Assembly (NCBI GenBank): GCA_021296215.1
Contig: JAGWBA010000008.1
Span: forward strand, 1,422 to 65,421
DNA: 64,000 bases
Reading direction: 5' to 3'
Source of the DNA: Flavobacteriales bacterium
GTDB lineage: Bacteria; Bacteroidota; Bacteroidia; Flavobacteriales; ECT2AJA-044
Shown: positions 3,775 to 32,996 of the stretch, in pieces
Numbering within the stretch: the first letter of the stretch is position 1
Layout: every line of letters starts with the position of its first letter
Position numbers and translations under genes: made by a program
Notes under the pieces: generated by a model
The model's input: only the letters and a program-made list of their open reading frames with translations
What the model was told of the DNA's origin: nothing
Database searches by the model: none

Positions 3775-4115
3775 GAGCAGTGGGCAGTGAGCTTTGGGCA
3801 GTGAGCAAGGGGTTGGATCTTAGCAGGTTCAAAGTCCGGAGTCCATAGTTCAGAGCGCAAAGCATAAAGTAACTCATGCTCGGGCGTAGCCCGAACTTCC
3901 TCTGCGCGGCAGAACACTCTTGCGTTCAACGCAAACAGCCTTCGAAGATAGTACACGTACTCGGGCGCGGCCCGAATATCTTCAAGCCTTGCTTGAATAT
4001 ACCTTCGCTTCGTAAATGTCCTTCGAAGAAAGAACACGTCCTCTGTGAAGCAGAACACCCTTGGGAGAACCCGAATCACCCTTTACGAAATAAAACAACC
4101 TCGCCGAAGGCGAAT
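3775..4115. repeat. Palindromic array 3 with leader and GGGCAGTGAGC repeats
   Basis: Short repeats of the type GGGCAGTGAGC (3779-3812) precede the leader (3825-3872, like those of arrays 1 and 2). About twelve units follow from 3880, for example TCGGGCGTAGCCCGA, TTGCGTTCAACGCAA, TCAAGCCTTGCTTGA, several CTTCGAAG units and a final TCGCCGAAGGCGA. The last unit ends four bases before the promoter box of the next gene. In 3620-3774 I see no gene. Confidence 0.85.
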
Positions 4116-18573: not shown

Positions 18574-18806
18574 GGGGGCAGTGGGCAATGAGCGGTGGGC
18601 GGTGGGCCAGTTCATTTGCTTTGCATGTGGGTTTCAGCCTTGCTGAAGTCAATTCGCTCCGCGATCTAGTATAATGGGTTTCACTCCGTAAGGAATGTTC
18701 TCGGGCGAAGCCCGAATTTACTCCGGCCATGCCGGAAGATCCTTCGGCTTCGCTGAAATGTACACGTCTACGGCTTACGGCCTATGGCCTACAGCCTTAC
18801 GAGTGA
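18574..18806. repeat. Palindromic array 4
   Basis: GGGCAGTGGGCAATGAGC-type repeats (18574-18610) lead into hairpin units of about 20 bp: TTCAGCCTTGCTGAA, an ACTCCGTAAGGA-type unit, TCGGGCGAAGCCCGA, TCCGGCCATGCCGGA, TTCGGCTTCGCTGAA and two GGC-TTAC/TAT-GGC units. Units start with ACTC or CTC and end GAAT. Confidence 0.75.
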
Positions 18807-28197: not shown

Positions 28198-28403
28198 TGT
28201 CCCGCTATGCCGATTTCGCATTCGCGAAACCGCTCGTCATTTCGCTTCATGCTTTTATTCGCTTCGCGAATCGCAATTCCGCTACAAAAAGCTACTTTGA
28301 TACATTGATCTTGAAACCACGGGGCGTGGCTGATCAAATCGAGGTTAATGGCAATTAAAGTCCCCCGCTGGCCTTAATCATAGTTATCGGGGGTTGGGGG
28401 TGC

Positions 28404-28668
28404 TATCCGAATCGCGCTACGCGCGAGTCAAGAACCATCAACTCCTTCAGGAAGTCACTCGCGACTGTGCCGCGAATTCACGTTGCTCAGGCAAAATCAA
28501 CTCCTCTGATACCACCTTTAGCGGGTATCACTGCATTAGACATAAAACGATACCTCTTCTGCTGCACCGAAGTCCATTCGCTCTGCGAGCGAATAAAAGG
28601 CCATTGACTCTGACCGGAATTCACTCGCGGCATTGCCGCGAATTCACTCTGCGAAGTTTAGTTCACTT
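28404..28668. repeat. Palindromic array 6
   Basis: About ten degenerate units starting ACTC/ATTC and ending GAAT or AAAT: CGCGCTACGCGCG, CTCCTTCAGGAAG, TCGCGACTGTGCCGCGAA, TTCGCTCTGCGAGCGAA and TCGCGGCATTGCCGCGA. It is more worn than arrays 1 and 3. Apart from this array and the element at 28151, the interval 28108-28687 has no gene I can support. Confidence 0.65.
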
Positions 28669-29260: not shown

Positions 29261-30301
29261 CTATTTTTTCAGGAGCCAAGCCTCCGCACTGTGTTCGCGC
29301 TTGATGCGGGCTAGGGCTTCCAGCGCCTCGCGGCGCGATGCAAAACTCTCGTACGTCACAATGTGCAAGCCCGTGGCGGTGGTCCCAATGCGTTCCGCAG
29401 GAACTCCTTCAGCTCTCAATCGATGTAGTAGCTTTTCGGCATTCGATTCGTTCGAGAAACAGCCGGCAATAACGTGGAATGAAGAAGTGTTAGCAGTGTT
29501 ATGAGTGCTAGCAGTGTTATTAGTGTTGGCTGTGGTATTGGTGGTTGAACGCTCTACCGGGTTAGGCACTTCGGGTTTTGGCTGGGCGTTTTCGTGCGCA
29601 ATGGCCCACCAGTCGTCGGCCTTTGACTCTTCTAATGGAAGCAACACCTCTTCTTCGGTGCGCGGTTCGTAGAGTTCGGGTCCGGTCGCGGTAAAATTCA
29701 AGATTCCTGCATGTACACCTTCGGTTACAGCATCGCGCTGCCACCAACTCAGGGCTGCAATTCCGACCAAGGGAACCAAAACCGCCGCCGCTCGCCACCA
29801 TCCGCGACGCGATGTCGACTGTGCAGAAGCCGGCAATACAGAATCTTCTTTATCCAAGGTCACCACCTTACGCTCCTGCCGCTGAATGGCCGGAGATCGC
29901 AAGACACTTAAACCGAACGAGTCGACCAAGTAGTTGATTTCGTTATGCGCTTTAAAGAGGATCTTGCCCTCCTCGCCCAATTGAAAAATACCAATGTGCT
30001 CCCAGTCCACGGCATGATGCAATTCGAGCTCACCACGCATTTCGCGGACGTTTTGCTCGATCAAGGTCAAGGCTTCATCGTAGCTGCAGCTTTCGCCAGC
30101 CGCTACCTCGTTGGCCAACAAGCCGTCGTTTTTGGTCAGCAGTTGATTGAAGGAGAGTGCCTTTGCGGGCGGATTCATAATATGCGTTACGGGGTGAATC
30201 CTGGCCGGGCGGTACGAACTCACCAACCCTCCCCATCCGGGAACGATGACACAGTCGAACCGATACAACAATTTACCTACGTAATCTTCTACCTTCATCA
30301 A
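29261..30301 (-). CDS. HU-domain (CCDC81-type) and SPOR-domain membrane protein
   Basis: 346 residues. Residues 1-75 match the Bacteroidota CCDC81-like HU domain (MMKVEDYVGKLLYRFDCVIV, PGWGGLVSSYRPARIHP, KALSFNQLLTKNDGLLANEV). A second HU-like part follows to about 130. One membrane helix (WWRAAAVLVPLVGIAALSWW) precedes a linker with NTT/NTA/NTN repeats and a SPOR domain (SFHVIAGCFSNESNAEKLLH, then RLRAEGVPAER) that binds denuded peptidoglycan at division sites. It thus links a cytosolic nucleic-acid-binding-type domain to the cell wall. Directly downstream of kdsB. Confidence 0.8.
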   Translation of the reverse strand: MMKVEDYVGKLLYRFDCVIVPGWGGLVSSYRPARIHPVTHIMNPPAKALSFNQLLTKNDGLLANEVAAGESCSYDEALTLIEQNVREMRGELELHHAVDWEHIGIFQLGEEGKILFKAHNEINYLVDSFGLSVLRSPAIQRQERKVVTLDKEDSVLPASAQSTSRRGWWRAAAVLVPLVGIAALSWWQRDAVTEGVHAGILNFTATGPELYEPRTEEEVLLPLEESKADDWWAIAHENAQPKPEVPNPVERSTTNTTANTNNTASTHNTANTSSFHVIAGCFSNESNAEKLLHRLRAEGVPAERIGTTATGLHIVTYESFASRREALEALARIKREHSAEAWLLKK

Positions 30302-31057: not shown

Positions 31058-32452
31058 TTACAGTCGATAGGAAACACCAGCCGCGAGTCCGACCGAGTAA
31101 GGCTTGAAATAAGTGTTGTCGATGGCCGATTGAAGCCCGTACCGCACTTGGGGTCCGGCGGTTAGACTCACATTCGAACTCAATTGATAAGCGAGCTCGA
31201 CACCTCCGACGGCACTCCATATAAAGTCGCGCGCACCTTCCGTAGTTCCGATCACCACGTCGTTATTGGAGGCGGAATATACCTGATTGTTCGTCAAAAA
31301 GTTTCCGGCGACACCGCCTTCGATACCGACCTTGAACTTTCCGTTACCGATGAGGTAGGTAGCCGTGAGCGGTACTTCGAGGTAGTTGAATTGCTGGTCT
31401 ACCGGCGATTTGATCACTTCACCGTCAACGGTTTCGAATGATGTGCTTTCCGACAACGACCCGGCATCGATCAATGTCGTGGCAATTTCTCCGGCGGTGG
31501 ACGAAACTATAAGCGTGGGCGTTGAGTTCGTAGCTACCGGACTCGAATAGCGGAAACTAGCATCGGCCTGCTGACCCATTTGGTGGTAGTTGATCCCCGA
31601 GGCAAATTGCCACCTGGGGTTGTTTTGATACGCGATCTCTATTCCACCCGACCATCCCCACAAAGGAGCGTCGGTGGTCGATTCGGCATTGGATGCCGTG
31701 GCCGGTGTATTGCCTGGTATCGGCGAAGGACTAGCATCACGAGCTTCCCTGAAGGCGATCACAGGGGCGCCTTCAACCGCGATGCTCCACGGCGAGCAGC
31801 CTTTGCATTTAATGGGACCGAGTTGATCCGGAATTGCCGGCTCCAATCGGGCCACTTGAACCCGCTCGAGAAGGATAGGGGATTCCTCTCCAATTTCATC
31901 TAGATCGGTCGGCAAAACGACCGAATTCGCAGCCAATACCTTGGATGCGTCGTTGTTCCATTCGGGCTGCAAGCGCACCTCGTTCGATTTTGTACCACTT
32001 ACGACACTTTCTTCATACTGACTCGCCGCAGGCGAATTCACTTGGCCTTTGGCCAACAATATATTGCTCGCCGTAGGCGAATTGTCTCGGACTCCGTCCG
32101 AATTGTCTTGGCCTTTGGCCAAACCGACTCCGGCCTCGCCGGAACTTCCTCGGCCCTCGGTCGAATTGACTCCGTCTTCGCTGGAACTGCCTCGGCCCTC
32201 GGCCGAATTGCCGTAGTTTTCAGCCAACGCTCCCGGGGCCTCAGAATGGTTCCCGAAGTAATAGCCCGTTCCGAAGGCCGAGACCACGATCGCCACACTG
32301 GCTGCAATGCGCATCCGGAAGGCGGTTTTACGGCGGCTCGATCGGTCGAGACCGGCATCCAAAGCATCCCACATTCCTTCGGGGGCCTTAGAAGTATACT
32401 GGCGGGCCGATTCGCCAAACAATTCGTCTATGTTGTAATCGTAGTTAGCCAT
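31058..32452 (-). CDS. Inner-membrane-anchored protein with heptad-repeat linker and outer-membrane-type beta barrel
   Basis: 464 residues. A cytosolic N-terminus (KAPEGMWDALDAGLDR), a membrane helix at about 48-67, a low-complexity linker, then a porin-like C-terminal barrel (WSGGIEIAYQNNPRWQFASG through VGLAAGVSYRL). Such proteins sit next to ECF sigma genes in Bacteroidota; the start overlaps the sigma stop by eight bases, so an anti-sigma or signal-transducing role is plausible. Residues 82-144 are nine heptapeptides, including NSAEGRG, SSSEDGV, NSTEGRG, SSGEAGV, GLAKGQD, NSDGVRD and NSPTASN, encoded by a 21-bp palindrome array. This region would span the periplasm. Confidence 0.7.
   Translation of the reverse strand: MANYDYNIDELFGESARQYTSKAPEGMWDALDAGLDRSSRRKTAFRMRIAASVAIVVSAFGTGYYFGNHSEAPGALAENYGNSAEGRGSSSEDGVNSTEGRGSSGEAGVGLAKGQDNSDGVRDNSPTASNILLAKGQVNSPAASQYEESVVSGTKSNEVRLQPEWNNDASKVLAANSVVLPTDLDEIGEESPILLERVQVARLEPAIPDQLGPIKCKGCSPWSIAVEGAPVIAFREARDASPSPIPGNTPATASNAESTTDAPLWGWSGGIEIAYQNNPRWQFASGINYHQMGQQADASFRYSSPVATNSTPTLIVSSTAGEIATTLIDAGSLSESTSFETVDGEVIKSPVDQQFNYLEVPLTATYLIGNGKFKVGIEGGVAGNFLTNNQVYSASNNDVVIGTTEGARDFIWSAVGGVELAYQLSSNVSLTAGPQVRYGLQSAIDNTYFKPYSVGLAAGVSYRL
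32021..32210. repeat. Palindromic array 7, inside a coding sequence
   Basis: Nine units of 21 bp in frame: TCGCCGCAGGCGA, TTGGCCTTTGGCCAA, TCGCCGTAGGCGA, TCGGACTCCGTCCGA, TTGGCCTTTGGCCAA, TCCGGCCTCGCCGGA, TCGGCCCTCGGTCGA, a TCCGTCTTCGCTGGA unit and TCGGCCCTCGGCCGA. Each opens ACT or TCT and closes GAATT/GAACT as in the intergenic arrays. Period, loop and flanks match arrays 1-5. Confidence 0.85.
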
Positions 32453-32996
32453 TACTCCAGATTTTGGTGCCGTACCGAGCCAATACCTTTTCCTGTAGAA
32501 TGGCCCGCGCGCGGGAGAGGTTCGATTTGCTCGTTCCGGTGCTGATGCCGAGCAAGTCCGCGATCTCTTTGTGTTTGTAGCCTTCTATCGCGTAGAGATT
32601 AAAAATCATCCGATACTGGGGGGGCAACTCGTGCACCAAGGCCAGTAGTTCATCTGCATCGATCTGTGGCGATATATTATCGTGTGACAACCTTTCATTA
32701 TATAAATGGCCGTCGTTCACATCGAAGGTCCAGCGGCGACGGCGGTGGCGTTCAAGGGCCAGATTGATGAAGATCCGGCGCATCCATCCTTCGCATTTTT
32801 CGTGATCCGACAGCAGATCGATCTTTTTGAATACGATCATGAACCCCTCTTGAAGAATATCCTCCGCCTCGTGCACATCCGATGCGTAGTACCGGCAAGT
32901 ACCCATCATGCTGTCCGCAAAGCGCATATACAGAGCTTTTTGAGCTCCGCGCTTTTTCTTCTTACAGGCGCGCACTATGGATACGAGTTCGGTCAC
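32445..32996 (-). CDS. ECF RNA polymerase sigma factor
   Basis: 183 residues. Region 2 is RFADSMMGTCRYYASDVHEA, then EDILQEGFMIVFKKIDLL; region 4 is ELPPQYRMIFNLYAIEGYKH, then KEIADLLGISTGTSKSNLSR. It directs RNA polymerase to extracytoplasmic-function promoters. It precedes and overlaps the barrel/linker gene and diverges from a secreted-protein gene; both directions have matching ECF-like promoter elements in the 90-bp gap. Confidence 0.9.
   Translation of the reverse strand: MTELVSIVRACKKKKRGAQKALYMRFADSMMGTCRYYASDVHEAEDILQEGFMIVFKKIDLLSDHEKCEGWMRRIFINLALERHRRRRWTFDVNDGHLYNERLSHDNISPQIDADELLALVHELPPQYRMIFNLYAIEGYKHKEIADLLGISTGTSKSNLSRARAILQEKVLARYGTKIWSNG

Follow-up and report, generated by a model that had tools for sequence, protein, structure and literature searches.

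An array of intergenic-type DNA palindromes lies in frame in the tether region of a Dma-like protein gene of a Flavobacteriales bacterium

The window, a 64,000-nucleotide stretch of the genome of a Flavobacteriales bacterium, contains an intact minus-strand gene (31058–32452) for a Dma-like (dual membrane-spanning anti-sigma) protein of 464 amino acids. Just upstream, on the same strand, lies a gene for an ECF sigma factor (32445–32996; Pfam Sigma70_r2 and Sigma70_r4_2), which overlaps the start of the Dma-like gene by 8 bp. The open reading frame, Pfam matches and hydropathy give the protein an N-terminal cytosolic part, one transmembrane helix, a long tether and a C-terminal outer-membrane barrel. 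The helix is predicted at residues 49–67 (32252–32308, minus strand), the top 19-residue hydropathy window of the protein (1.49). The β-barrel domain at residues 259–460 (31073–31678, minus strand) matches PF13568 (OMP_b-brl_2) with 32.2 bits, above the curated Pfam cut-off of 27 bits. The tether of 194 amino acids is of low complexity, hydrophilic and unconserved in sequence. It is presumably disordered and extends through the periplasm, and the protein probably spans both membranes. In the published dual membrane-spanning anti-sigma factors, the middle part is a long intrinsically disordered tether (PMC13088901). The protein described here shares with them the link to a sigma factor gene, the transmembrane helix, the long tether and the C-terminal barrel, and differs in the palindrome array within its tether. 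The N-terminal domain of Dma proteins binds the cognate (ECF21) sigma factor; for the protein described here, the related observation is an N-terminal motif conserved among homologues.

Nine palindromes at 32023–32206 encode residues 82–144 of the protein, between the transmembrane helix and the barrel. The original prediction had placed them in this interval, and the heptapeptides that it quoted are present. Its description of the region as a periplasm-spanning linker agrees with the tether reported as disordered in the Dma family (PMC13088901), the topology being presumed. The whole array (32017–32212) lies in plus-strand family orientation, antisense to the gene. Seven units measure 15 bp (six base pairs around a loop of three bases); the other two, with five pairs, measure 13 bp. 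Unit 1 (TCGCCGCAGGCGA, 13 bp, 32023–32035) encodes SPAAS, and unit 2 (TTGGCCTTTGGCCAA, 32042–32056) encodes LAKGQ. A longer spacer precedes unit 3 (TCGCCGTAGGCGA, 13 bp, 32068–32080, SPTAS), which results in a 24-bp step. Unit 4 (TCGGACTCCGTCCGA, 32087–32101) encodes SDGVR, and unit 5 (TTGGCCTTTGGCCAA, 32108–32122, LAKGQ) has the same letters as unit 2. Units 6 (TCCGGCCTCGCCGGA, 32129–32143, SGEAG) and 7 (TCGGCCCTCGGTCGA, 32150–32164, STEGR) are followed by unit 8 (TCCGTCTTCGCTGGA, 32171–32185, SSEDG), a partly decayed copy of unit 6, and by unit 9 (TCGGCCCTCGGCCGA, 32192–32206, SAEGR). Units 6–7 and units 8–9 form two copies of a 42-bp dimer (32126–32210) with 88% matches, the trace of an in-frame duplication of 14 codons.

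The right ends of successive units are 21, 24, 21, 21, 21, 21, 21 and 21 bp apart, all nine units are in codon phase 0 of the minus-strand gene, and the peptide step is seven residues, once eight. The claim that a 21-bp unit of seven codons keeps the reading frame therefore stands for the steps, all of which are multiples of three, but not for a uniform unit, since two palindromes are 13 rather than 15 bp long and one step is 24 bp. Among intergenic steps of the same family, only 39 of 81 are multiples of three. The seven 15-bp units encode no Cys, Phe or stop, which has a P of about 0.0008 under random draw from intergenic units; this overstates the significance because several units are duplicates, and the corrected value is perhaps 0.02. 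Because of this absence, the array peptide is not wholly free. Stops are expected in about 15% of units, and therefore their absence from the nine units is not significant in itself. The array has the same codon usage as the remainder of the gene, at the 55th percentile among 65-codon windows of other genes. The reading of the gene as a pseudogene was ruled out by this codon usage and the absence of stops. A gene fusion through an intergenic array was also ruled out, as homologues in other families already join the N-terminal part and the barrel in one open reading frame.

The family unit is a 6-3-6 palindrome (T-NNNN-C, loop, G-NNNN-A) with an AT-rich 6-bp spacer, giving a 21-bp step. With the covariance model, intergenic arrays of the family are found in the window at 158–480, 2867–2935 and 3874–4060 (all plus strand), at 18627–18763 with divergent arms (minus, then plus), and at 28382–28647 with divergent arms between convergent genes. 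The covariance model R1 is based on alignment A1 of 21 two-unit intergenic windows, with the array gene left out. A1 has the consensus ATTTAC-T[CGnG]C-GnA-G[CnCG]A-ATnTAC, and nine of its twelve stem pairs show both-sided change; 96.8% of its stem cells pair, a percentage that is inflated because windows and units were partly picked for pairing. Trained without the locus, the model matches the gene at 32081–32128 (42.1 bits, E 4.5e-10), 32165–32212 (32.8 bits) and 32017–32062 (31.1 bits). Therefore, the in-gene array belongs to the family of the intergenic element, as had been proposed, and it shows the outer T:A and inner C:G pairs, the variable middle pairs and the AT-rich spacer of that family.

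Perfect 6-3-6 hairpins in 1.73 Mb of the source genome recur at spacings of 21, 42 and 63 bp in 18, 8 and 5 pairs, compared with 0–3 pairs at most neighbouring spacings; these peaks are absent from 400 kb of the sole available genus mate. The model R1 has 76 matches in the source genome, zero in the genus mate, and one marginal match (E 0.004) in 58 further relatives. When 398 genomes of the order were searched more coarsely, with scoring limited to the 15 best candidates of each genome, the family was located in the source genome only, and exact-pattern scans of DNA and protein in the public collections genome_contigs and viral_contigs returned nothing. As far as tested, the hairpin-array family appears to be private to the source lineage. 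The 44 R1 matches that were placed on the sequence are distributed over 15 tandem, 10 convergent and 3 divergent gaps, 10 contig ends and 6 overlaps with open reading frames. The background comprises 379 tandem, 106 convergent and 169 divergent gaps, and therefore convergent gaps are over-represented among the arrays.

Among the overlaps with open reading frames that were examined, the array of the window is the only one inside a bona fide gene. Candidates at C3:41756 and C60:8564 were ruled out because they lie 5' of the likely true starts, and those at C28:21841 and C61:8337 because their reading frames appear spurious. A secA-like gene and one further long gene have weak matches of two or three units that are chance-like, and single TCGCC palindrome copies in other genes resemble ordinary codons. 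Many arrays consist of two oppositely oriented arms that flank a central stretch with ACTCCGTAAGGAATT or a close variant (L059:3377-3466, L095:15031-15120, window 18627–18763, and others), which suggests a composite element. Arrays are common at contig ends (for example, C6:323, C39:44, C51:271, C56:178, C60:14921 and C91:7235), and therefore they probably break the assembly and are undercounted. A six-unit array at L093:13736-13847, not listed by the covariance model, has some longer stems and steps of 21–23 bp and is a possible second subfamily. Another array, at L083:19292-19369, contains TTCGGC/TTCGCC palindromes with different spacers (acctga) and block repeats, within a 402-bp gap that is absent from the genus mate.

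The gaps between genes were compared where both flanking genes also adjoin in the examined 400 kb of the genus mate. Three array-bearing gaps measure 402 versus about 0, 678 versus 533, and 453 versus 339 bp in the source genome and genus mate, respectively, whereas 59 array-free gaps are of similar length (median 87 versus 81). One array locus has a clean empty site in the genus mate. The difference between the two kinds of gaps indicates that the arrays clearly look like extra DNA gained relative to the genus mate. At the locus of the in-gene array, kdsB and its neighbouring gene are retained in the genus mate, without the array-gene operon; therefore, this genome offers no orthologue close enough for a comparison of unit numbers. 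A BLAST search identified no donor array for the in-gene copy, and the sequence that this copy has in common with any other array is limited to about 23 bp.

Palindromic repeats that are read in frame are already known from Rickettsia palindromic elements (RPE), intragenic REP sequences and PARCEL repeats. RPEs are about 150 bp long, encode a conserved peptide, and occur also inside protein-coding genes (reviewed in PMC10969869). Like them, the family described here lies both between and inside genes, in frame, and adds a peptide to its host protein; it differs in having many 21-bp units with variable self-complementary stems instead of one long element with a conserved peptide. In an RPE-type test, the array is in frame, the orthologous tethers cannot be aligned, and the genus mate has no gene at the operon site. 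Intragenic clusters of GTAG/CGTC REPs can encode 43–82 amino acids (PMC3733652), and REPs resemble the present units in being small palindromes mostly located downstream of genes and sometimes within them. The differences are that stem sequences are not conserved here and that no RAYT-type transposase was found.

The array could have been inserted as a palindromic element that is mobilized by a transposase, similar to REPs or RPEs. The dispersal of the family, the empty sites in the genus mate, the precedents for in-frame insertion of both RPEs and REPs, and the bias towards convergent gaps, which resembles that described for REPs (PMC3733652), are consistent with such an origin. However, the Y1 tyrosine (RAYT) transposase PF01797 has no matches in the source genome, which is 97% complete, or in the genus mate, and positive control genomes were matched. 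A REP family can outlive its own transposase. The consensus also carries neither of the tags GTAG and CGTC at its stem foot, and neighbouring stems differ from one another, unlike copies of a single element, so we consider such an insertion unlikely. What is new here is the tandem form with variable stems, apparently without a RAYT-type transposase.

PARCEL repeats resemble the in-gene array in being tandem coding repeats with dyad symmetry of the DNA, many of them in membrane-targeted proteins. They are made of a 25-residue unit with conserved hydrophobic residues and occur sporadically across clades, whereas the array has a seven-residue step, no conserved amphipathic pattern and a mostly intergenic family in one lineage. 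The 25-residue amphipathic motif was not found in the array, with its step of seven (once eight) residues and peptides such as SAEGR, SGEAG, LAKGQ and SPTAS. Coding palindromes of nematomorph mitochondria are up to 284 bp long and lie in conserved protein regions under amino-acid selection (PMC6649704); they share with the array the retention of inverted repeats in coding DNA, but here the units are short and the tether is unconserved.

Homologues of the array gene (E ≤1e-8) are present in 56 of the 398 genomes of the order, including the source genome. The 32 extracted Flavobacteriales homologues have in common the N-terminal motif and the helix, followed by a long linker of low complexity and a barrel at the C-terminus. 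Their tethers, of 177–375 amino acids, are unrelated in sequence, and none of the 32 contains a hairpin array. Orthologues with the same peptide linker and no palindromic DNA, which would have counted against the original prediction, were not among them: the tethers consist of different peptides and lack palindromes. Two other sigma-linked proteins of the source genome (L044 126-1475, and L047 on contig C30) have a helix, a linker and a barrel-like C-terminus, without hairpin arrays. The idea that the array supplies length needed by the tether was dropped because the tethers of other Dma-like paralogues of the genome are hairpin-free, one of them being about 145 amino acids long by eye.

The same comparison bears on the possibility that the array is a selected contingency module, in which gain or loss of seven-codon units changes the length of the tether and hence anti-sigma signalling. 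The 21-bp step, in frame throughout, and the location in the tether agree with this explanation, and the 42-bp internal duplication of 88% identity is the sole hint of a change in unit number. Nevertheless, homologous tethers vary in length without repeats, the other Dma-like paralogues do without arrays, and the units are probably too diverged for efficient slippage. A contingency function is thus quite improbable.

A second repeat is located in linkers of the source genome. A CACTnnTAn repeat with a 9-bp period occupies 29486–29543 of a SPOR-domain gene (29261–30301, minus strand) and recurs in the linker of another sigma-linked protein (L042 ORF 2016-2771, contig C3). It is in frame inside both linkers and is also found between genes, and the genus-mate orthologues of both genes have different linkers without the repeat. 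These two further repeat-bearing linkers, free of the repeat in the genus mate, suggest that the source genome may habitually acquire, in its disordered linkers, repeat DNA whose period is a multiple of three.

The stems of the array provide evidence of what maintains the palindromes. The outer T:A and inner C:G pairs are invariant across the seven in-gene units of 15 bp; of the four middle pairs, three show both-sided change and the fourth is either G:C or G:T. Both-sided changes were counted in 6 cells, compared with 0 of 500 shuffles and 0 in slid controls. For example, the paired change of TCCGGC to TCGGCC turns SGEAG into SAEGR. Since such paired changes in both arms alter two amino acids at once, the symmetry is held at the DNA level, and the peptide follows the DNA. 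The 114 intergenic units contain 21 G.T and 22 A.C among their non-Watson–Crick stem pairs, and single-mismatch units alone contain 15 and 7, respectively. Selection for an RNA hairpin would predict mostly G.U on the transcribed strand, and therefore the overall equality argues against it. The lead of G.T in single-mismatch units may reflect some RNA selection. The mismatch pattern as a whole fits a strand-symmetric DNA process. In hairpins, template switching is documented to produce both perfect stems and paired changes (PMC8794818), and arm-to-arm copying by this process combined with tandem duplication is the simplest candidate cause, as read from the pattern and not from ancestral states.

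It is very unlikely that the pairing was selected because the hairpins function in the gene, as mRNA or antisense-RNA structure, in transcription pausing, or in cruciform binding. The pairing is high, with 49 of the 52 possible stem pairs formed in the in-gene array, and folding compared with shuffles gave a z of -4.2 for the plus DNA strand and a weaker z of -2.8 for the mRNA. However, neither G.T nor A.C predominates among all stem mismatches. In units 7 and 8, the G.T pairs belong to the antisense strand and correspond to A.C in the mRNA, and the hypervariable stems disfavour sequence-specific binding to them.

The in-gene array is neither a chance nor a codon effect. In 20,000 synonymous recodings of its peptide with local codon usage, the mean was 24.7 stem pairs and the maximum 37, and codon shuffles reached 27 at most. 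When 1.53 Mb of the genome was scanned for palindrome arrays, the in-gene array had the highest score of 24.3, and no order-2 Markov sequence scored above 10. A peptide repeat with palindromes as a by-product of codon choice or chance, although compatible with the shared codon usage of array and gene, is refuted, because the observed pairing was never reached by recoding and the array is matched by the model from intergenic arrays.

Based on the stems, the distribution of the family and the homologous tethers, we consider it probable that the array is an in-frame member of a lineage-private, almost wholly intergenic hairpin-array family, tolerated in a Dma-like disordered tether. The array would have come to rest in the periplasmic tether of the anti-sigma/outer-membrane-barrel protein and would be neutral there because its units keep the frame and are read as small, mostly hydrophilic peptides. 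It may have grown or rearranged in place by steps of 3-bp multiples. Its palindromy would be kept by copying between arms during template switching in replication and by tandem duplication, without upkeep through peptide or RNA selection. We more tentatively speculate that a mutational process of the lineage writes and re-perfects short tandem palindromes of changing sequence, so that the amino acids of the tether are set by the matching of arms and not by peptide selection.

Whether paired stem changes reflect selection for structure or errors of copying between arms is an old problem, because both causes predict the same pattern in RNA genes. A coding array with hypervariable self-complementary stems separates the two, since here a paired change can come at the price of two amino acids, with no evident RNA that benefits. 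Intergenic repeat DNA can turn into protein where the protein is indifferent to sequence. The array is a rare case in which part of a protein seems to owe its sequence to the dynamics of repeats at the DNA level and not to the function of the protein, which here probably connects a sigma factor with both membranes.
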